Source of the DNA: a virus
Length of the DNA stretch: 43,897 nucleotides
Virus record (IMG/VR): IMGVR_UViG_3300032174_000014
Location: 1 to 43,897 of that record
Direction: 5' to 3' (one strand)
A program made the position numbers and the translations under genes. Of the stretch, positions 918-42,391 are shown in pieces (within the stretch, counting starts at the first letter, position 1; every line of letters begins with the position of its first letter). The notes below the pieces were generated by a model. The model was not told the origin of the DNA. It ran no database searches and was given only the letters and a program-made list of their open reading frames with translations.

Positions 918-1308
918 CGGGCTAGAGGGGCGGGCGGGGCCTCTGGTGATGTCGCACCATCAGCGCCCGCCCAAAATCACCGCTGGCCGGCGGCTATGTC
1001 GAAATTACCTCGCGCATTCGTTGCCGTCAATAGCCCTTGCCTCCCATCCCCTTCCATGCAACGCTGCGGTCGTCCAGCTTCTGGACGTCGAGTGGCTCCT
1101 GTCCACTCTGTTTGACGCCTCCCTGTTACCCAACTTGGCCGCCTTTACGGGCGGTCATTTCTTTGGTAGGTAGGCCATCGGAGGCTTTGCTTCGGCATTG
1201 CCTTTCGAGTTAGCGGGCGCTGCATTCCATCGTGGCCCCGCCGGATTGAAGATGGAATACGGTCGCTCTGCACCGGGGAGCGGCAAGAGATTAAACAGGT
1301 CGTATAAT
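918..1308. other. 391-bp gene-free stretch with hairpin and palindrome
   Basis: No open frame on either strand here looks like a gene. It holds a strong hairpin (928-972) next to the YWHGWRNG gene and part of a palindrome (1294-1320) at the other end. It splits the otherwise tightly packed leftward early operon, so it may hold a promoter, terminator or small RNA for the replication genes. Confidence 0.6.
928..972. terminator. Strong bipartite hairpin upstream of replication genes
   Basis: Nine-base-pair stem GGGCGGGCG (928-936) with CGCCCGCCC (964-972), and a nested TGGTG (944-948)/CACCA (955-959) stem. There is no T-run after it on the minus strand and only AAAAT after it on the plus strand, so it may be an attenuator, a processing site or a leader structure rather than an intrinsic terminator. 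Confidence 0.4.
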
Positions 1309-2800: not shown

Positions 2801-3330
2801 CGATGGCCGCTGCTGAAGATATTCGATGCGACGCGCTTGGCCCTGACGATAGGCTCACGTGCGTACACGATCCCGTAACAGTGCTCGCACCATGAACTGT
2901 CGATTGATTTAGTCGGTTGACCGCAGAACAGATACGGGGGATTATCGTTAAAGCTATAACGGCATTCGTGGGGATTAAGGTCAAGGAGGGGGATATTGCG
3001 GGAGCCCTCCCATGGCAACATCAGTTTTGGTTGGGTCATGACGGCGATCTTGGGTTTGGGAGGCGTTATTCGTGTCTTGCGTCTTGTTTGTTGTGCAGCG
3101 GCTTTTTGCTCGCGCGTTGGGATTGGTTTAGAGGCTTTCCTGCCGCGTCCTTCAAGTCTAAGCCGATGAACCTTGCCGATGACGGCCGAACGGGATGGGC
3201 CTTGTGTACCATCATGCAATAGAGAAGATATTTGCGAGGCTGTGCGGCCCTCAGCCCACAGTCTCTTGGTCATGGCGACCGCCACGTCCGTCCAATCGAA
3301 TTGTGCAAATCCCCGCGTGTCGCCTTGCAT
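2797..3330 (-). CDS. GcrA-like cell-cycle regulator
   Basis: 177 aa from MQGDTRG. Residues about 12-60 match the GcrA N-terminal HTH (WTDVAVAMTKRLWAEGRTASQIS...SAVIGKVHRLRL). A basic linker follows, then a Cys-containing C-terminal part (HECRYSFNDNPPYLFCGQP...WCEHCYG) like the GcrA C-terminus that contacts sigma70. GcrA in alphaproteobacteria activates sigma70 promoters carrying GANTC methylation. The start at 3330 was chosen because the upstream gene stops at 3347; an in-frame ATG at 3399 would overlap it. It could redirect or compete with the host GcrA (inference). Confidence 0.85.
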   Translation of the reverse strand: MQGDTRGFAQFDWTDVAVAMTKRLWAEGRTASQISSLLHDGTQGPSRSAVIGKVHRLRLEGRGRKASKPIPTREQKAAAQQTRRKTRITPPKPKIAVMTQPKLMLPWEGSRNIPLLDLNPHECRYSFNDNPPYLFCGQPTKSIDSSWCEHCYGIVYAREPIVRAKRVASNIFSSGHR

Positions 3331-15497: not shown

Positions 15498-15513
15498 GTG
15501 ATGCTATGCGAAA

Positions 15514-15543
15514 GGCGATGTTATAGTTAACAAACCCAGACAC
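15514..15543 (+). repeat. Left inverted repeat of IS1595-family transposon
   Basis: Begins GGCGATGTTATAGTTAACAA. Matches the right end at 28 of 30 positions (differences at positions 16 and 27); CTAG at 15549-15552 is also matched at the corresponding place on the right. Confidence 0.85.
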
Positions 15544-15578: not shown

Positions 15579-16511
15579 ATGGCAAGTGTTCTTACCGAAG
15601 CATATTTCACCAACGAGGCGGCGGCCTTCGCTGCGCTTGAAGGGATCATGTGGCCGAACGGCCCGACCTGCCCGCACTGCGGCGCCGTGGACCGGATCAA
15701 CAAGCTTGAAGGCGTGAAGGACAAGAAAGGCCGCGTCCGGTTCGGCCTTTGGAAGTGCTACCACTGCCGGGGGCAATTCACAGTCCGCAAGGGCACCGTT
15801 TTCGAGGCCAGCCACCTAAAGCTTCACCAGTGGTTTCAGGCGGCCTACCTGCTTTGCAGTAGCAAGAAGGGCATCAGCAGCCATCAGCTTGCCCGCACGC
15901 TCGGCTGCACGGTCAAGACCGCGTGGTTCGCCAGCCATCGCATCCGCGAGGCGATGAAGGACGGCAAGCTCGGCCCTATCGGCGGCGGCATGAAAGCAGT
16001 CGAGGCGGACGAAACGTTTATCGGAAACCGCAAGGGCTTTCCGAAGGGCAAGGGCGGCTTCGGTCACAAGATGAAGGTCATGAGCCTTGTCGAGCGCGGC
16101 GGCCGCGTGCGGTCCATGGTGCTCGACAGCGTGACGCGGACGGACGTGGAGCGCGTGATCCGCGAGAACGTGAAACCGGATTCCAAGCTGATGACGGACA
16201 CGGCGGCGTACTACAAGCGCGGCGATCTCGGCACGGCCGAGCACCACATGGTCAACCACTACGCCAACGAGTACGTGCGCGGCGAGGCGCATACAAACAC
16301 GCTGGAGGGCTATTTCAGCGTGTTCAAGCGCGGCATGAGGGGCGTGTACCAGCATTGCGAGGAAAAACACCTTCCCCGATATCTCGCGGAATTTGACTTC
16401 CGCTATAACCACCGCATCGCGATCGGCGTGGATGACGTGAGCCGCACAACACATGCGCTACAAGGCGCAAAGGGCAAGCGGCTTACTTACAAGCCAGCTA
16501 ACCGAACCTGA
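15579..16511 (+). CDS. IS1595-family (ISXO2-like) transposase
   Basis: 310 aa, usual length. N-terminal zinc ribbon C31-x2-C34 and C60-x2-C63; HTH-like region about 97-120 (SSHQLARTLGCTVKTAWFAS); ISXO2-like catalytic domain with D144 (EADETFIGN), D207 (MTDTAAYY) and E243 (NTLEGYFSVFKRG). No frameshift or stop, so likely active. Ribosome site GGGAGAGG before ATG. Its promoter probably lies within the left inverted repeat. Confidence 0.93.
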   Translation: MASVLTEAYFTNEAAAFAALEGIMWPNGPTCPHCGAVDRINKLEGVKDKKGRVRFGLWKCYHCRGQFTVRKGTVFEASHLKLHQWFQAAYLLCSSKKGISSHQLARTLGCTVKTAWFASHRIREAMKDGKLGPIGGGMKAVEADETFIGNRKGFPKGKGGFGHKMKVMSLVERGGRVRSMVLDSVTRTDVERVIRENVKPDSKLMTDTAAYYKRGDLGTAEHHMVNHYANEYVRGEAHTNTLEGYFSVFKRGMRGVYQHCEEKHLPRYLAEFDFRYNHRIAIGVDDVSRTTHALQGAKGKRLTYKPANRT

Positions 16512-16587: not shown

Positions 16588-17776
16588 CTAGGCCGACCAA
16601 AAGCTAAGTGCATGGGAGGGGAACTGGTGGTCTCTCCCCATATTGATGAGGTCCCAAGCAAATTCTCGAAGCTCGAAGCCTTCGCCAATCGATTTTCGAA
16701 CTCTTGGTCGCGAGGCAACACCCTTCTTGTTGTAGAGTTCGAATGCTTCTTCAAAGGTGTTGGCGTATCTGAATTTCTTTTGCAGTCCTTCATACGGCGG
16801 AAGCGCACCACCGTAACCGATCACGCGACGCGCCATCGCAACCATGTTCAGTTGATCGATCGTCCAGTTCGGCGAAACGTATGAGTCTTTCTCTAGCGCC
16901 TGTTCTCCGATGAGCGGCTGATAGCGCATCGGGTAAGCGGCGACACCCCACGCAAGCAGGTCCTGAACGCGCCGGAATAGGTCCTCTGGCGTGTCGCGAT
17001 AGTTATACAAGACGTAGCAGCAAATGTGCCCGTATCGATGACGGCCTAGACCGGCGGCCTTTAGATTCTTGATCGCGCGTTCCATTCCTTTGCGCATACC
17101 GGGGAAGTCATAGGCGAAGCGAATGGTTGGAATGTTGAGCGTCGCAAGCTCGTGCGCGACTTCCTCTGTAACGAGACGCGCATCAAGGCCCTGATTGAAA
17201 TCGACTTCGACCTTTAGGTCGCGTAGCTCCGCGAAAAGATCACGCCAATGACTTTCGCCAAGCACATTGTTGTCCCACAAGATCACCCGCTTGTGGTTCT
17301 CATGGATCAAATGCGCGACCTGGCTGTTCGCTCGAATTTGAAAAGGCTTTCCTTCAAGCTTTGGCACCGCGCAGAAATCGCATTTTCGGATGCAGCCACG
17401 ATGGCTGAACATGATCGAGGCGCCGCGTTCCTCGTGCCATTCCGGAACGAGGCTATAGTCCGGCAGTAGATCCTCCGCTTCGCGAGTCAGACCAACCGAA
17501 ACTTCGTGGGCGCCACTTTGCCGCGCGTGGTCCGGCATGAGTGTCGCATAGATGCCGCCAAGCGAGACTTTCGCGCGCGGAAAAAGCGCGCGATAAAAAG
17601 CGACTGCTTCCCAGACCGGTCGCCACGCCCAAGTGAAAAGGCTAGCGCGTCACCAACTCAATGCCACGAACGAAACGAACCTCATGCCCTCGCTGCTTAT
17701 AGAGCGTCGAGAGCTTAAGCAGACCAAGGGGTGGGTACTGTGTGTAGTACGCTGGCTCGACAAGCAGAATTTTCAT
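16588..17776 (-). pseudogene. Radical SAM protein gene, frameshifted
   Basis: The gene starts at 17776 (MKILLVEPAYYTQYPPLGLL, a B12-binding-like radical SAM N-terminus), coupled by ATGA to the MerR-like gene, but stops at TAG 17644-17642 after 44 residues. The rest continues in another frame as SLFTWAWRPVWEAVAFYR and onward, with SHRGCIRKCDFCAVP giving the CxxxCxxC cluster motif (C49, C53, C56 of the 316-residue part that begins at ATG 17538). GTGACG then four extra bases CGCT then AGC marks the break; about 15 residues usually present here also seem lost. The core might still be translated from 17538. Confidence 0.75.
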
Positions 17777-17970
17777 GCTGCTCGACCGATCACCGCCGGT
17801 GCTGTTTCGTCCTTGAATGCCTGTAACTTCGCGCGGTCATCGTCGCTGTAGATCAGTTGTTTGGTGCGAAGATGCCGCTTCGGATTGGCCGGACTGATGC
17901 CGCGCTTCTCCCATCGATAAATCGTCGCTGGCGTGACACCGATAACCTTCGCCACTTCGTTTCTCGTCAT
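17773..17970 (-). CDS. MerR-like HTH regulator
   Basis: 65 aa from MTRNEVAK (GGAG 6 bases upstream); an ATG at 18018 would add 16 residues. TRNEVAKVIGVTPATIYRWEKRGI...RHLRTKQLIYSDDDRAKLQAF is a MerR-type winged HTH without a long effector domain. Divergent from the ParB-like gene and coupled to the radical SAM gene, so it likely controls this cargo. Confidence 0.75.
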   Translation of the reverse strand: MTRNEVAKVIGVTPATIYRWEKRGISPANPKRHLRTKQLIYSDDDRAKLQAFKDETAPAVIGRAA

Positions 17971-18099
17971 GGACAACTCCAACTCGATCGCGGTCGATCG
18001 ACAGCGATCTACTAGCATATCTGAGTGTAAACATCAACGATTCGCCTTGACGTGTCATTAACCGCGACGGTACGGATCGATTGTTCCGGCATTCGGCCG

Positions 18100-18155: not shown

Positions 18156-19229
18156 ATGGAACATACCGTCTTTGAGGAAATCACGATCAACAAAGAAAAA
18201 ATTCGTTTGGAGCATCGCGACGTTCCACTCGACTTGATCGAACTTGACGAAGACAACCCGCGTCTCCGCTACCTGCGCGAAAAGGATGGTGCGAAGTCGC
18301 TGGAGGACTTCATCAAGAAGCTCCCCGACGCGCCGAAGCTCCGCAAGGACATCGAACAAAACGGCGGCCTGCGGGAGCCTGTGATCTTGAAGCCAAACGG
18401 AAAGGGGAAGTTCAAAGCAGCCGAGGGCAACCGCCGTGTAGTGTCAATCGGCGAATTGCACGAGAAGCACCCCAAGGACGCGCGCTGGAAAATTGTGCCC
18501 GCACGTATCCTCCCGAAGGATGTCGATCCGAAGAAAGTTGCCATCCTGCGCGCGGACCAGCACGTGAACGGCAAGGTCAAATGGGACGCGCATGAGAAGG
18601 CGGGCGAAATCTATCACATGAACCGCACGTTGAAGATTCCGCTCGACGAGATCGTCACGGTGCTACATGCGAGCAAGAGCACGGTGCAGCGCTTCTTGAG
18701 CGCGTACAGCATGATGATGGACACCTTCCGGACCATCGACAAAGGCAAGTACGCAAAGCTCGGCGACGGAAAGTGGTCGTTCTTCGACGAGCTCTATCGC
18801 TCCAAGGACTTGCGCAAGCACTTGGACACTGATCCGGAGTTCGCGGACAACTTCTCGCGATGGGTTGGCGAGGAGCGACTTGCTAAAGGCGCGGACGTTC
18901 GGAAGCTCGCTGCAATTCTTGGTCATCCGGAAGCGCGGAAGGTCTTTGAGACGACGAAGAATCAGCCGAAGGGCAAGCCGTTCAACGAAGCCAAGAAAAT
19001 CTTGGAGAGCGACGAACCCGAACAAGGATCGGATTTCTTCAAGCTGCTCGCCAAGGTGCGCGACAACTGCACCAGCGCGGCGCAGGTCAAAGAAATTTTG
19101 CGCATCCGGACCGACGATATTGCGCGCAAGCGCGTGTTGGAAACCTACGAGGCGCTTGTTGACTTCATGCGTCTCGCCGATGTGGCAGTTCCAGATGCTG
19201 TGCCGGCAAAAAAGCGCAACGCTGCTTAA
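18156..19229 (+). CDS. ParB/Srx-domain DNA-binding protein
   Basis: 357 aa with GGAGG 6 bases before ATG. N-terminal ParB-like domain: VPLDLIELDEDNPRLRYL, then GGLREPVILKPNG and AAEGNRRV, where ParB nucleotide-binding proteins have a G-E-R-R-type box (here GNRR). HTH follows about residues 145-175 (LDEIVTVLHASKSTVQRFLS). The C-terminal half is helical and not a known domain. No ParA partner is nearby, so plasmid-type partition is unlikely; CTP-dependent clamp behaviour or transcription control is more plausible. Confidence 0.8.
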   Translation: MEHTVFEEITINKEKIRLEHRDVPLDLIELDEDNPRLRYLREKDGAKSLEDFIKKLPDAPKLRKDIEQNGGLREPVILKPNGKGKFKAAEGNRRVVSIGELHEKHPKDARWKIVPARILPKDVDPKKVAILRADQHVNGKVKWDAHEKAGEIYHMNRTLKIPLDEIVTVLHASKSTVQRFLSAYSMMMDTFRTIDKGKYAKLGDGKWSFFDELYRSKDLRKHLDTDPEFADNFSRWVGEERLAKGADVRKLAAILGHPEARKVFETTKNQPKGKPFNEAKKILESDEPEQGSDFFKLLAKVRDNCTSAAQVKEILRIRTDDIARKRVLETYEALVDFMRLADVAVPDAVPAKKRNAA

Positions 19230-19246
19230 GGCTGATCTTAGCCGAA

Positions 19247-19358
19247 CGGCCGGAGGCGATCTCTCGCACCCGGCCGCTCACTGGTGGGGGACGGGAGGTC
19301 CCCGGCGCGGGCTCTGGAACCTGACACCGGAGGGGTTCAATTCCCCTGTCCTCCACTA
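19247..19358 (+). ncRNA. Structured RNA with tRNA-type T arm and acceptor end
   Basis: Four hairpins in a row after the ParB-like gene: CGGCCGG (19247-53)/CCGGCCG (19270-76) with inner GCGA/TCGC; GGGGAC (19287-92)/GTCCCC (19298-303); TCTGG (19313-17)/CCGGA (19327-31); and AGGGG-TTCAATT-CCCCT (19331-47), a canonical T arm. GGGGGAC (19286-92) can instead pair with GTCCTCC (19348-54), giving an acceptor stem ending A-CTA in place of CCA. The D arm and anticodon arm are not canonical, so this is a tRNA- or tmRNA-like relic or a tRNA-mimic RNA. The first hairpin may also terminate the parB mRNA. Confidence 0.55.
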
Positions 19359-19410
19359 GCTCTAACATAAGCCTTACGGTGACGAGTCGCAAACCTACTA
19401 GGACGTGAAC

Positions 19411-19551
19411 ATGATCGCCAAGACGCGCAAGGCCACGGCCGAAGCTTCGCGGCCAGTGCCAGTATCGCTGCATCCTCTCTCGCTTGAACAAGCCTTGGGG
19501 GCGCTGTTGCGCATTCCCCATTCGGGCGCCACCAAGTATAGCGGCGGTTGA
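19411..19551 (+). CDS. 46-residue conserved-type small protein
   Basis: Begins MIAKTRKATAEASRP and has VSLHPLSLEQALGALLRIP, a motif typical of short proteins of about 50 residues that occur in many bacteria and phages; role unknown. Its stop lies one base before the ATG of the next small gene. Confidence 0.55.
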   Translation: MIAKTRKATAEASRPVPVSLHPLSLEQALGALLRIPHSGATKYSGG

Positions 19552-19552
19552 C

Positions 19553-19738
19553 ATGGCAAAATCAGTTAAGAAGCCTCAGAGACGTGCAGCAGCTAAGCGC
19601 AAGAAGCTCTCGACTAAGCGCCGCGCGCGTCGCAACCCAGCGGATAGCTTCATCGCCGTGGCCCGTCGCCTAGAGGCGGATGAGGACAAGGCGACGTTTG
19701 AAGCGAAGCTAGGGAAGATCGCGCGGGCGACGCCCTAA
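19553..19738 (+). CDS. Small Lys/Arg-rich protein
   Basis: 61 aa. N-terminal half extremely basic (KKPQRRAAAKRKKLSTKRRA), C-terminal half an acidic-basic helix (DSFIAVARRLEADEDKATFE). Its TAA (19736-19738) overlaps the stop of the convergent gene on the other strand. May bind nucleic acid. Confidence 0.55.
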   Translation: MAKSVKKPQRRAAAKRKKLSTKRRARRNPADSFIAVARRLEADEDKATFEAKLGKIARATP

Positions 19739-20099: not shown

Positions 20100-20129
20100 G
20101 TGGCTGGGTTTGTCAACTATAACATCGCC
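20100..20129 (-). repeat. Right inverted repeat of IS1595-family transposon
   Basis: Read inward on the minus strand it begins GGCGATGTTATAGTTGACAA and matches the left end (15514-15543) at 28 of 30 positions. The next base outward (20130) is the last base of the stop codon of the late membrane protein gene. Confidence 0.85.
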
Positions 20130-20345
20130 TCACCGGAGAAAGGGCGCGTGCATGGTCCCGCCCGCCAATAGCGTCAGCACGGCGATGATGATCAGTAGAA
20201 GCACGATGAACCAGATGCCCTGCACGAGACGCGGCGGCAGCGTGTAAATGAATTCGTTGATGCCGTAGATCACCAGCCACACCACACCGCAAAGCGCGAT
20301 GGCGCCGATCAGAAACCACAAGACCTGAATTGCGAGCGCAATCAT
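20130..20345 (-). CDS. Small two-pass membrane protein, last late gene
   Basis: 71 aa with two hydrophobic segments (about 4-28 and 41-62), short loop between, and AGGAGG before ATG. The topology fits a class II holin, but the gene lies ten genes away from the endolysin. Its stop codon touches the transposon edge, so its C-terminus may have been changed by the insertion. Confidence 0.6.
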   Translation of the reverse strand: MIALAIQVLWFLIGAIALCGVVWLVIYGINEFIYTLPPRLVQGIWFIVLLLIIIAVLTLLAGGTMHAPFLR

Positions 20346-23814: not shown

Positions 23815-25476
23815 TCAGATTTCGCACATCATGTTAACGATTATCTCATTCCCATTTGCCACAGGAAACGTGCCATCGTACTTGTAAACACGGAACGACG
23901 ATGCGTCGTCATATTTCACTAGCCCACCTAGAGTAACACTTGTGCTGGAATTAAACCCGCTTATGGCCGAAACCGCACTGGCGGGGAAGGGCAACGTCAC
24001 TTTAAGTGCCCCCGCACCTGTTCCGATGTTAGCAAAAGACGCCCGAACAAAGACAAACATGGCGCGGCCGATCTGTTTGAAATTGGCCTCCAAGATTGTG
24101 TAAGTGGTAAGGGCACCAGTTGTTGCCGTGATGGTCGGAGTATAATCAGTCCATACCCTGTTATCTATGATCGTGTTTACATTCGATTTCGTTCCGCTCA
24201 ATAACGGCAGAGCAGCGCTGATAAAGTTGGGGATAATTACGTTTGACGCACAATTGTCATTGGTGTTGTCCAGATAAAAGGCGGACGTGGAAAACCCGCC
24301 ATCATCCCCGACATACACACTTACAAACACGTTGTAACCACACCCGCCAACATGAGCAATAGCATTGTCGAGCAGAGCAAACCCATGTTTATAGTGTGTT
24401 ACTTCGACCTGCGCGGTGTAGAATCCATTCGCAATTGCGCCCAATCCAACCCCATAGAAAGTAAATGGAGCGCCATGGGTTTCCGATGAGCCGCAGGTAT
24501 AATCGGCTGTGACATTCTGCACTACTACGCCATTGGCTGAGCCGCCAAAGTTGATCGCGTGGCGTACATGTGAAAACTCCATATTGATAAACTGAGTACC
24601 GTATCCCTGAAATCCATTGGTTGCCAAAACGCCGCCTAACGCAACGGATGCCGAGGTAATGCCGCCAAGTTGGCAGGCATCCTGTGCGCAAGACGTTCCG
24701 GAATTGGATGGGTTGCCGCATACACTCACATCATGAATGTTAAGTGTCGTGTTGGTCGTTTGAAGCATCAGGAAATTGTCCGATCCCCCACTCTTTAAAG
24801 TCAGATGATCGATCTCCAGGTTGCCAATTCCCCGCGTATCGATTTTGGCGGGGTGCAGCGTGTCCACGCCGTCGTATCTCAAATCGAGGATTGTCCCAAC
24901 CGTTAACCCCGCACCCTGCCCAACTCCATCAACGTCTCTGGCCTCGCCGGTAATTCTCAAGAAGGGCTGCTTGGGTGGAGATGTACCCGTGTAGGGAATT
25001 GCAAGACATCCGGTCATGATAACATGACCGGACAGGACGAGCGTTCCGCCGCCATGCGCCTGTAGCGTCACGATCGCATTGTTAATCGCCGTATCGGCAG
25101 CGGTGACGCCATCGCCCACACCACCGAATGCGCGGTAATCGAGAGTATTGCCTACAATCTCATACCACGTACCGTCTGCAATCTGGATTTTCCCAGCGTG
25201 GGTAGGCTGCGAAACAACTTGCTCGTAGAGCGCTCCGCCGCCGTCACCGGCTGAGATATACCCCTCAATTCGGATGAAAGATGGCGCCGCCACTACCGGA
25301 TCGTAAGCCTGAGCAGCAGCCTTCGTGGCGAACAGGGGATTATCGGTTGTTGGGATAATCGAAGGATCGAATGAAATCGTATAATTACCGGCCGTTTTCG
25401 TGACTATAACGCCGTTATCCCCAGTGACAGAAGCCGGGAAACGCGGGAGAACCTTTAGCCTGACTTGCGTAGTCAT
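23815..25476 (-). CDS. Tailspike with pectate-lyase-like beta-helix
   Basis: 553 aa. A short N-terminal adaptor is followed by YRAFGGVGDGVTAADTAINNAIVTLQ, the start signature of pectate-lyase-type beta-helix tailspikes, and then repeated short strands. The last 110 residues form a distinct C-terminal domain. It likely binds or depolymerises host surface polysaccharide. GC is visibly lower than in flanking genes, as is usual for exchanged receptor-binding genes. ATGA overlap with 25473-25814. Confidence 0.75.
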   Translation of the reverse strand: MTTQVRLKVLPRFPASVTGDNGVIVTKTAGNYTISFDPSIIPTTDNPLFATKAAAQAYDPVVAAPSFIRIEGYISAGDGGGALYEQVVSQPTHAGKIQIADGTWYEIVGNTLDYRAFGGVGDGVTAADTAINNAIVTLQAHGGGTLVLSGHVIMTGCLAIPYTGTSPPKQPFLRITGEARDVDGVGQGAGLTVGTILDLRYDGVDTLHPAKIDTRGIGNLEIDHLTLKSGGSDNFLMLQTTNTTLNIHDVSVCGNPSNSGTSCAQDACQLGGITSASVALGGVLATNGFQGYGTQFINMEFSHVRHAINFGGSANGVVVQNVTADYTCGSSETHGAPFTFYGVGLGAIANGFYTAQVEVTHYKHGFALLDNAIAHVGGCGYNVFVSVYVGDDGGFSTSAFYLDNTNDNCASNVIIPNFISAALPLLSGTKSNVNTIIDNRVWTDYTPTITATTGALTTYTILEANFKQIGRAMFVFVRASFANIGTGAGALKVTLPFPASAVSAISGFNSSTSVTLGGLVKYDDASSFRVYKYDGTFPVANGNEIIVNMMCEI

Positions 25477-34695: not shown

Positions 34696-35889
34696 TTAGG
34701 CGTTCGCGACGCCGGAGACGAAGCCGGTGACCATTCCCCAATCGACAAGATCGCCGACCGTGGCGCTTGCGGTGGAGAGCGGAGCCTTGGCAACCTTGCC
34801 GACGCCGTACTGCGCTTCGATGCCCATGCCAGTGATGAAGTCGTAGTCGCCGTCCTCAAGCTGGGTCGGACGCGGCATCTGACCGAGCGCATACGCAATG
34901 GCGCCCTGACCGAGCAGGAATACCGGCTCGACATCGATGCCAGAGGCACCCGCTGCGGTGAGCAGAAGCCGCGTGGTGATTTCCGGAATGTTCAGGTAGT
35001 AGATGCCGTCATAGATCAGCCCGCCGCCCGTGAAGATCGGGTTTTTCTTGGTCGGGTTGCTCTCGCGCTCGCGCGCGTCACGGTTGGCCTGATACATCAC
35101 GGAATCGGCCTTCAGATCGCGGAAGGCGCGGTCGCCGAGAAGGCACAGATACCATTCCTGGTCCGTTTCCTTCAGCTGCCATGGCGTAATCTTGGGCTTG
35201 CCGTTATAGACGCCAGAGGTCATGCCGGTGGCCTTAGCTTGGTCCTTCATCAAGGAACCAACCGCCGCCGTCATCTTGTCGTTGGTCGAATCGACGTTGG
35301 CCGCAGCCGTCGCGAAGGTGGTGGAGTAGTTCGCGATGGCCGAGCCGAACACCACACGGTCAACGTTCGCCGTCACCCACGAGTTTTTCTGTCCCGCAGT
35401 CGCCGCCGACCACTTGATGCCATTGACGCGGTTGCCGCCGCCCGTCGAGGTCAGACGATTGGCCTGTACCGCAGAGGTCGGGATCGACAACAGTGCATCA
35501 ACAAGATCGTCGCGCACGATGCGACGAGACCAGCCGCTCAGAAGCGAACGGGCCGTCGAACGAATCGAGAATGAGGATTCCTTGTTGACCGCGCGGTTAT
35601 TGGCGACCGCGTTACGAGCCCAATCGGCCCAGATCGGAAAGCCGTAGCTGTCGATCTGTTCCTCATTGCCGCGCAGCGTACCGGCGCCGACGCCGGAACC
35701 GGAAAGCTGGGTCACCAACGGGATGTTGATTTCCTTGCCGTCCGCCGTCAGTTCCTTCAGGCGAACGATGGGATAGGTCGAGTCCGGCCCCATGAAGGGG
35801 TCGAAACGAGATTTGCGGAGGAAGTCGATTGCCGCCGTTCGGCGGAATTTGATCAGTTCGTTATTGACGTGGTTGGAAGTGAGGGCCAT
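34696..35889 (-). CDS. Major capsid protein, N4-gp56 family
   Basis: 397 aa, usual length. ELTADGKEINIPLVTQLSG then LRGNEEQIDSYGFPIWADW and ARSLLSGWSRRIVRDDLVDALLS match the N4-gp56 type HK97-fold capsid. The gene follows the scaffold by 50 bp and precedes a decoration-like gene. Confidence 0.88.
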   Translation of the reverse strand: MALTSNHVNNELIKFRRTAAIDFLRKSRFDPFMGPDSTYPIVRLKELTADGKEINIPLVTQLSGSGVGAGTLRGNEEQIDSYGFPIWADWARNAVANNRAVNKESSFSIRSTARSLLSGWSRRIVRDDLVDALLSIPTSAVQANRLTSTGGGNRVNGIKWSAATAGQKNSWVTANVDRVVFGSAIANYSTTFATAAANVDSTNDKMTAAVGSLMKDQAKATGMTSGVYNGKPKITPWQLKETDQEWYLCLLGDRAFRDLKADSVMYQANRDARERESNPTKKNPIFTGGGLIYDGIYYLNIPEITTRLLLTAAGASGIDVEPVFLLGQGAIAYALGQMPRPTQLEDGDYDFITGMGIEAQYGVGKVAKAPLSTASATVGDLVDWGMVTGFVSGVANA

Positions 35890-40708: not shown

Positions 40709-42183
40709 TAGAGGGTTTTCCATGCGTTGTTGGCGGACGGCGTAGCGCCTACAGCCTTGTAGCCGGAGACGTTCTTGGGCTTCTCAGGCTCTTTGATCTT
40801 CATGCCACTGGTCATCTTGGCGAGGAGCTGTCCGACAAGGCCGAGCGCATCAACCTGATCGTCATGCTTGCCCGCCGGGAAGCTCAGCAGCTCGCTCCGC
40901 AGCGCCGGATACCAAGGGGCACCGATCGGCACGTAAAGCCCTTCAGAGGCCATCCTGCCGCGAATGGACTGTGCTCTAACAGCCTTGTCGCCTCGGGTCG
41001 GAAACTGATCGCGGAATACGTAAGCCTTGCGCTCGCGTTGCCTGCGTTCGAGAAACGGTCCAACACCAGATTTGATCTGGCCTTGCTCCTCAGCCCAGCC
41101 GATGGGCTTCCATTCGGTTACGAGGTCGCAGAAGGCTTCGACCCAGATATCGGAAGCGGATTGTTTGCGCCAGAGGTCGAGGAGATACATTCGTCCTTCG
41201 GGATCGATGCCCACGACGGCATGAACGGTAAAGTCGCCGCCGTCCGCCGTAACTGCGTAATCTGATCCGCCGTAAACCCTGAGCGTGTTTCGATCTGGCG
41301 CTTTGTCATACGGTTTCAGCCATTCAGCCTTGAAGTAGTCGCCGTCTTCCGGGGCTGGCCGCTGCTGATAAAGAGCCGACCAATCGCGCGGGCCAACTGC
41401 ACGTCGCTTGCGGTCAAGCTCTGCCTTGCCTTCCCATTCAGGCCAAAGAGGTTCACCCGCGCTCCTGCCAAGCGGATCGTCACCTTCGGCAATAGCTGGA
41501 AGCGAAATAACCTCCCACTGATCGCCGCCGGTTTCCATGTCGGCCAGCAAACGCCCAGCAAGATCATCTTCGTGCCATCGGGTCTGGATTAGAACGATCC
41601 GCCCGCCCGGCTTAAGTCGAGTATAAAGGTCGGATTTATACCAGTCCCAGACCTTCTCACGGACGGTCTCGCTGTCAGCATCCTCTCGGCTACGGACTGG
41701 ATCGTCGATGACAACCAGGTCAGCTCGTCGTCCAGCAATGGCCCCGCCGATACCGGCTGCGAAATATTCGCCTCCATGATCAGTCTCCCATCGCCCGGCA
41801 GCTTGACTATCAGGCGCAAGACCGGCTCCTAGAACTAGATGATGTTCGCTCACCAGATTGCGAACGCGACGGCCCCATTTCTCCGCAAGTTCCGCCGTGT
41901 GCGACGCGGCTATCACGCAATGATCGGGATAGTTCCCGAGATACCATGGTGTAAACAAGATCGACGCATAGGTGGACTTCGCAGCACCGGGCGGCATGAA
42001 TACGGCCAGCCGGTCAACATCCCCGCGTGTAACGGCCTCTAGCTTACCGATCAACAGCCGATGATGACGAGCGGGCTCGAAGCCCGCGAACCGACACCAG
42101 TCAGTTAAGCTGCGACGGATCGACCGCCGCTGCAATAACGTCCTCGCCGCCTCCTGCCGCGATATAGGCGAGTTCATCATCAC
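40708..42183 (-). CDS. terL: Terminase large subunit
   Basis: 491 aa, usual length. N-terminal ATPase: Walker A MPPGAAKST (63-71), Walker B LVVIDDP (156-162). C-terminal RNase-H-like nuclease: GGSDYAVTADGGDF and HDDQVDALG (440-448) hold the catalytic acids. Pumps DNA into the prohead and cuts it. Overlaps the upstream small-subunit gene by 83 bases, though MMMNSPISRQEAARTLLQRR suits the family's N-terminus. Confidence 0.93.
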   Translation of the reverse strand: MMMNSPISRQEAARTLLQRRSIRRSLTDWCRFAGFEPARHHRLLIGKLEAVTRGDVDRLAVFMPPGAAKSTYASILFTPWYLGNYPDHCVIAASHTAELAEKWGRRVRNLVSEHHLVLGAGLAPDSQAAGRWETDHGGEYFAAGIGGAIAGRRADLVVIDDPVRSREDADSETVREKVWDWYKSDLYTRLKPGGRIVLIQTRWHEDDLAGRLLADMETGGDQWEVISLPAIAEGDDPLGRSAGEPLWPEWEGKAELDRKRRAVGPRDWSALYQQRPAPEDGDYFKAEWLKPYDKAPDRNTLRVYGGSDYAVTADGGDFTVHAVVGIDPEGRMYLLDLWRKQSASDIWVEAFCDLVTEWKPIGWAEEQGQIKSGVGPFLERRQRERKAYVFRDQFPTRGDKAVRAQSIRGRMASEGLYVPIGAPWYPALRSELLSFPAGKHDDQVDALGLVGQLLAKMTSGMKIKEPEKPKNVSGYKAVGATPSANNAWKTL

Positions 42184-42391
42184 TCATTCCGAGTGCGGCG
42201 TTGAGCTTGTGTACGTCATCGGTGGAGAATTGCGGTGCCTTGCCCCATCCACGATCAAGCAGAACCGAGGCCGCTGATACGCGGGCAGCAGGCGGCGCAT
42301 CGGGCTCACTCATGATGCGAGCAAGCGTTCTAACGGCGCTTTGTGTGTGGGAACGCGCCAATGATCTCAAATCGGTCGGGGCTTTAGCCAT
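42101..42391 (-). CDS. Putative terminase small subunit
   Basis: 96 aa. SHTQSAVRTLARIMSEPDAPPAARVSAASVLLDRGWGKAP is a motif common in small proteins directly upstream of terL. Probably recognises phage DNA for packaging. The 3' end overlaps terL by 83 bp. Assignment rests mainly on position. Confidence 0.65.
   Translation of the reverse strand: MAKAPTDLRSLARSHTQSAVRTLARIMSEPDAPPAARVSAASVLLDRGWGKAPQFSTDDVHKLNAALGMSDDELAYIAAGGGEDVIAAAVDPSQLN

Follow-up and report, generated by a model that had tools for sequence, protein, structure and literature searches.

What is a segment with the acceptor stem and T arm of a tRNA, and no normal anticodon arm, doing among the cargo of a phage-borne transposon? 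The segment (positions 19247–19358) belongs to the genome of a tailed soil phage, IMG/VR record IMGVR_UViG_3300032174_000014, which we analyzed over its full 43,897 nucleotides (hereafter the window). A first-pass annotation had offered a choice between a relic derived from tRNA or tmRNA, an attachment-like element and a tRNA mimic, and had proposed two exclusive folds in a switch-like design. We favor a degenerate, non-decoding relic of a tRNA-Ala (a pseudo-tRNA), a reading that we hold at about even chances and whose direct basis is the two intact helices, the alanine identity positions, the missing features of the 5′ half and the transposon setting.

Architecture of the element

The element lies on the plus strand between a ParB-like gene (18156–19229), which is directly upstream, and small open reading frames. 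The ParB stop codon is directly followed by a weak hairpin (19230–19243), and then by a strong hairpin with a 7-bp outer stem (19247–19276, −22.0 kcal/mol). The T arm, AGGGG-TTCAATT-CCCCT, occupies positions 19331–19347 and is as perfect as first annotated. It abuts the 3′ acceptor strand GTCCTCC (19348–19354), which pairs with GGGGGAC (19286–19292) at all seven positions, through six Watson-Crick pairs and one G·U pair. The strand is followed by the discriminator A73, which closes the stretch 19348–19355, and by CTA; the 3′ end of the element reads GTCCTCCA. A 5-bp T stem with a TTCRANN loop next to a 7-bp acceptor stem is the arrangement of a tRNA, the two helices stand at tRNA spacing, and counting up to position 73 gives 70 nt in total.

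The downstream strand that pairs with GGGGGAC and ends in A-CTA had thus been correctly recognized. As for the acceptor stem itself, the seven tRNA-like pairs stand, whereas its ending does not: upstream CTGGT continues to pair with downstream ACTAG, which extends the stem to 12 bp (5′ strand 19281–19292 with 19348–19359; acceptor pair probabilities 0.999–1.0). In the predicted precursor fold A73 is base-paired, which it is not in a tRNA. This pairing of A73, together with the five extra pairs beyond the tRNA boundaries (TGGT/ACTA plus C/G), would argue against a relic.

The 38 nt between the acceptor strand and the T arm contain neither a D arm nor an anticodon arm in register. When the acceptor stem and T arm are enforced, an irregular central arm (19303–19329) takes the place of the anticodon arm; its inner stem, CGGG/CCTG, has 4 bp and an 8-nt loop, and a 5-bp stem with a 7-nt loop is absent from the element. 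U8 and the D-arm residues are also missing, position 8 being a G with no D stem in register, and the element contains no CCA.

Comparison with tRNA and tmRNA classes

The lack of a normal anticodon arm, noted at first pass, was confirmed, and neither ARAGORN nor Rfam calls a tRNA here. ARAGORN found no tRNA gene in the window and the Rfam tRNA model RF00005 had no match in the record, a silence to be expected of a non-canonical tRNA. None of the Rfam tRNA models exceeded its threshold. The best covariance-model match was tRNA-Sec, at 21.9 bits against a cut-off of 47 (E = 6 for the whole window and all Rfam families); the element has no UCA anticodon and no 6-bp D stem, and tRNA-Sec was rejected. 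With tmRNA, including its permuted form, the element shares a T arm, an alanine-type acceptor and the lack of a normal anticodon arm. Unlike a tmRNA, however, it scored 11.3 bits against 47, with the T arm alone aligned, and the tmRNA origin that had been suggested was dropped.

Could the resemblance to a tRNA have arisen by chance? The T-loop-like sequence would then be fortuitous, part of a long, imperfect, GC-rich hairpin that follows the ParB gene as a 3′ structure of the transcript. The finding was chosen by eye, and the tRNA-Sec E value quoted above also counts toward chance. In simulations with loose criteria, a perfect T arm with a 7/7 acceptor occurred about 0.07 times per window, and our case therefore rests on a stricter definition: a T stem of five Watson-Crick pairs, a TTCRANN loop, a 7/7 acceptor with at most one G·U pair, and tRNA spacing. 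The simulated expectation then falls to about 0.01 per window. The element is the only strict match in the window, and in 1.4 Mb of loci the remaining matches were all genuine tRNA genes, with no false positives. Coincidence is further opposed by the joint agreement of the T-loop consensus, the length, A73 and the positions of alanine identity.

The chance explanation is also opposed by the terminator scan, in which the element did not qualify as an intrinsic terminator because no U-run follows it. The segment folds strongly, with an energy below that of all 200 shuffles (z = −3.86). Its lowest-energy fold is a single long stem of 14–16 bp that crosses the tRNA boundaries, as a chance hairpin would. 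Weighing these points, we consider chance resemblance unlikely, though a rival to be taken seriously.

Alanine identity and the nearest tRNAs

The determinants of bacterial alanine acceptors are A73, G2-C71, G3·U70 and G4-C69 (PMC9976931), and the sequence of the element contains the full set. It further resembles bacterial and phage tRNA-Ala in its T arm, AGGGG-TTCRATT-CCCCT, and in its near-tRNA length; it differs in the absence of a canonical D arm, anticodon arm, U8 and CCA, and in the acceptor pairing that overruns the ends. The closest phage match is a genuine tRNA-Ala(TGC) in phage locus L008, identical in 7 of 7 positions of the 5′ acceptor strand and in 27 of 28 positions over 19331–19358, CTA included; the length of this match is not independent evidence, because L008 came to light in a search for this same motif. 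Among 337 alphaproteobacterial genomes, 25-nt matches within two mismatches were present in only 6, all of them in tRNA-Ala(CGC). The relic proposed at first pass gains support from the strict tRNA-half criteria, the alanine set and these nearest tRNA-Ala matches.

As a side observation, a spurious antisense open reading frame on the minus strand (19165–19554) encodes VEDRGIEPL, a peptide of the type obtained when tRNA genes are read backwards, and the real tRNA-Ala of L008 yields the same peptide.

The element would descend from a phage-type tRNA-Ala, the class of its nearest match. Its decoding half would have decayed or been replaced, while the acceptor stem and T arm were retained. Because the data searched hold no homologue, we infer this descent from short stretches. 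That both helices are perfect speaks against random decay of a tRNA, which should have cost some pairs.

Predicted folds and the proposed switch

According to ViennaRNA, the T arm is open in the lowest-energy fold (−42.6 kcal/mol), where a GGG pairs with the 3′ strand of its stem; the T arm has a probability of about 0.03. A cloverleaf-like fold that keeps the T arm reaches −39.8 kcal/mol, and the acceptor pairing is common to these two best folds. The predicted disruption of the T arm would count against the relic.

The alternative local hairpin, GGGGAC-GGGAG-GTCCCC (19287–19303), was the basis of the switch-like design that had been proposed. Combined with the T arm, it gives a fold of −32.5 kcal/mol, 10 kcal/mol above the minimum, and in the full-length RNA its probability is about 0; it approaches 1 only for transcripts that end at 19303–19345, and is lost once the 3′ strand emerges. 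The full-length RNA does not hold two states of comparable stability, and a switch operating through this hairpin was rejected. On these calculations, the exchange between hairpin and acceptor is ordinary co-transcriptional refolding and no sign of regulation. We would expect neither a decoding role nor a regulatory switch for a tRNA-Ala relic. If it were transcribed together with the ParB gene its main role, more speculatively, might be that of a stable structure at the 3′ end or of a processing point of the RNase P type.

The transposon and its cargo

The element is cargo of a transposon, as had been stated at the outset. Terminal inverted repeats of 31 nt at 15513–15543 and 20100–20130, 94% complementary to each other, enclose an ISXO2-like transposase gene (15579–16511, plus strand; PF12762, 115.6 bits; PF12760, 47.9 bits), which places the transposon in the IS1595 family. 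In related IS1595 loci a similar end lies upstream of the transposase, with about 5 mismatches in 24. No target-site duplication is visible, the flanks ATGCGAAA and TCACCGGA being different.

Besides the RNA-like segment and the small open reading frames, the cargo comprises a radical SAM gene, a MerR-type HTH gene (17773–18018, minus strand; PF13411, 32.4 bits) and the ParB-like gene (PHROG ParB-like), whose relatives share 32–36% identity. The core part of the radical SAM gene (16588–17538, minus strand; PHROG 9298) and its N-terminal part (17642–17776, minus strand) are in different frames, and both match one continuous open reading frame in loci L010 and L011. The split gene (16588–17776) is either a pseudogene or a sequence error; it looks like decayed cargo next to the element, and we count it in favor of the relic.

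L010, L011 and the Rhizobium/Mesorhizobium plasmid loci L003–L007 share a conserved neighborhood, varying in gene content between loci, in which a radical SAM protein is accompanied by an SNF2-type helicase, a DndB/DpdB-like DGQHR protein and two or three proteins of the ParB-like type. Such a neighborhood looks like an island for defence or DNA modification, and the transposon in the window carries a reduced part of it.

No close copy of the transposon, the ParB gene, the radical SAM gene, the inverted repeat or the RNA was found in searches of IMG/VR, phages and plasmids. The transposon was found in none of 50 related phage records, and DNA relatives of the transposase at 63–69% came without matching cargo. 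Conservation of the RNA together with the ParB gene was rejected, as the ParB relatives examined lack the element downstream.

Could the element instead be a working tRNA mimic, either an RNA that resembles a minihelix and accepts alanine or an element with two co-transcriptional states, in the service of a defence-like cargo? Its acceptor–T half is intact and carries the alanine determinants; AlaRS reads the acceptor, so that such a mimic could in principle be charged. The local hairpin and the acceptor pairing are predicted to swap during transcription, and the neighboring genes are weakly similar to the defence-associated families PDC-M38A (38.7 bits in PADLOC for the ParB-like protein), PD-Lambda-5_A and mad1 (32.2 bits for the MerR-type protein). 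There is also a precedent in tRNA-Other of Bacillus cereus, a pseudo-tRNA with a cellular phenotype (PMC3399842). Like the element, tRNA-Other is tRNA-like, is not expected to decode and is linked to mobile DNA; it has a Trp anticodon and a tested phenotype, whereas the element has neither. No homologue was found for the element, however, the ParB relatives examined come without it, and the predicted fold leaves its T arm unstable, all of which makes a working mimic very unlikely. More specific still, and in our view highly improbable, is a candidate function as a working part of a transposon-borne defence-like cassette, in which an anticodon-arm-less, alanine-accepting mimic would serve, for example, as a substrate or decoy of AlaRS or of tRNA-processing enzymes and could not itself be cut in an anticodon loop.

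If functional, the element would be a rare tRNA mimic of a bacterial mobile element, built on an alanine minihelix. If it is a tRNA-Ala relic, it would be one clear case of how non-decoding fragments of tRNAs gather in phages and transposons, here in a phage group in which tRNA halves for several amino acids occur among the relatives.

Related phages and possible attachment sites

The window carries a 127-nt direct terminal repeat at its ends and is therefore circularly complete. Genes for terminase, portal, capsid and tail mark it as a tailed phage and occupy the minus strand between 20 and 43 kb. For the capsid protein, IMG/VR contains 193 relatives, of which the best 80 show 73–88% identity. 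A capsid relative at 76% also occurs in a Bradyrhizobium manausense family genome, so that the host probably belongs to this family or is close to it. In the prophage with this relative, ARAGORN called no tRNA, and neither a long flanking repeat nor a T arm of the tRNA type was found.

Mobile DNA commonly leaves tRNA fragments behind in prokaryotes, a point that we also count for a tRNA-Ala relic, and integration sites are a well-known source of such fragments (PMC9897764). The element might be the relic of an attachment site, a tRNA 3′ end that formed the attP core and was left behind after loss of the integrase. The integrase family was matched in 14 of 22 relatives, 10 of them over the cut-off, and in several (e.g. 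G1170) the integrase is at the end of the early arm, where the window has its transposon. A search of 37 records with RF00005 revealed true tRNAs in several related phages, and sub-threshold 3′ halves of tRNAs that have lost their 5′ halves (loci L137–L140): Gly-TCC in G1190 (24045–24112) and G1191 (3089–3156), Met-CAT in G1194 (42147–42297) and Val-TAC in G1203 (34696–34767). An integrase gene is found about 100 nt away from the Val half. In G1183 a tRNA 3′ end shortly follows the integrase, and in G1184 a cut tRNA-Ser follows it by about 160 nt. These halves and ends look like attachment sites. Near the halves, repeats of the AAGTGGTTGA/TCAACCACTTA type are common to G1203 and G1191, as is expected of such sites.

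In the circularly complete window, by contrast, the integrase family PF00589 has no match. A search of about 85,000 species genomes for the 24-nt 3′ end of the element gave no exact match, and a scan of 398 genomes from the order did not find its acceptor plus T-arm pattern, so that neither set yielded a host tRNA with a 3′ end identical to the core. The element also ends in CTA, whereas the sites of the relatives show CCA, and it lies within transposon ends. Like the integration-site fragments described previously (PMC9897764), it keeps the 3′ part of a tRNA in mobile DNA; unlike them, it retains the 5′ acceptor strand, not expected in a 3′ fragment, and lacks an anticodon arm, and neither an integrase nor a matching bacterial tRNA was found for it. 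A working attachment site is unlikely because no integrase was detected, the genomes searched gave no exact match, CCA is missing and the 5′ acceptor strand was kept; a functional site was rejected because neither an integrase nor a matching host tRNA was found in these searches. The attachment-like element of the first pass gains an unexpected lead from the relatives, with their 3′ halves, some beside integrases. An attachment-site relic, such as an old and rearranged site, is, in our judgment, also improbable.

Several further sequences resembling tRNAs or small RNAs were noticed. G1178 (L127:2700–2780) carries tandem T-arm-like hairpins, GCGGG-TTCGACC-CCCGC and AAAGG-TTCGAAT-CCTTT, without complete tRNAs. 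A phage tRNA missed by ARAGORN (L008:7451–7546) has the apparent anticodon TTC and an extra hairpin in its D loop. In the window itself, positions 1057–1164 (plus strand) match BjrC1505, an alphaproteobacterial small RNA family, at 79 bits, here within a phage genome.
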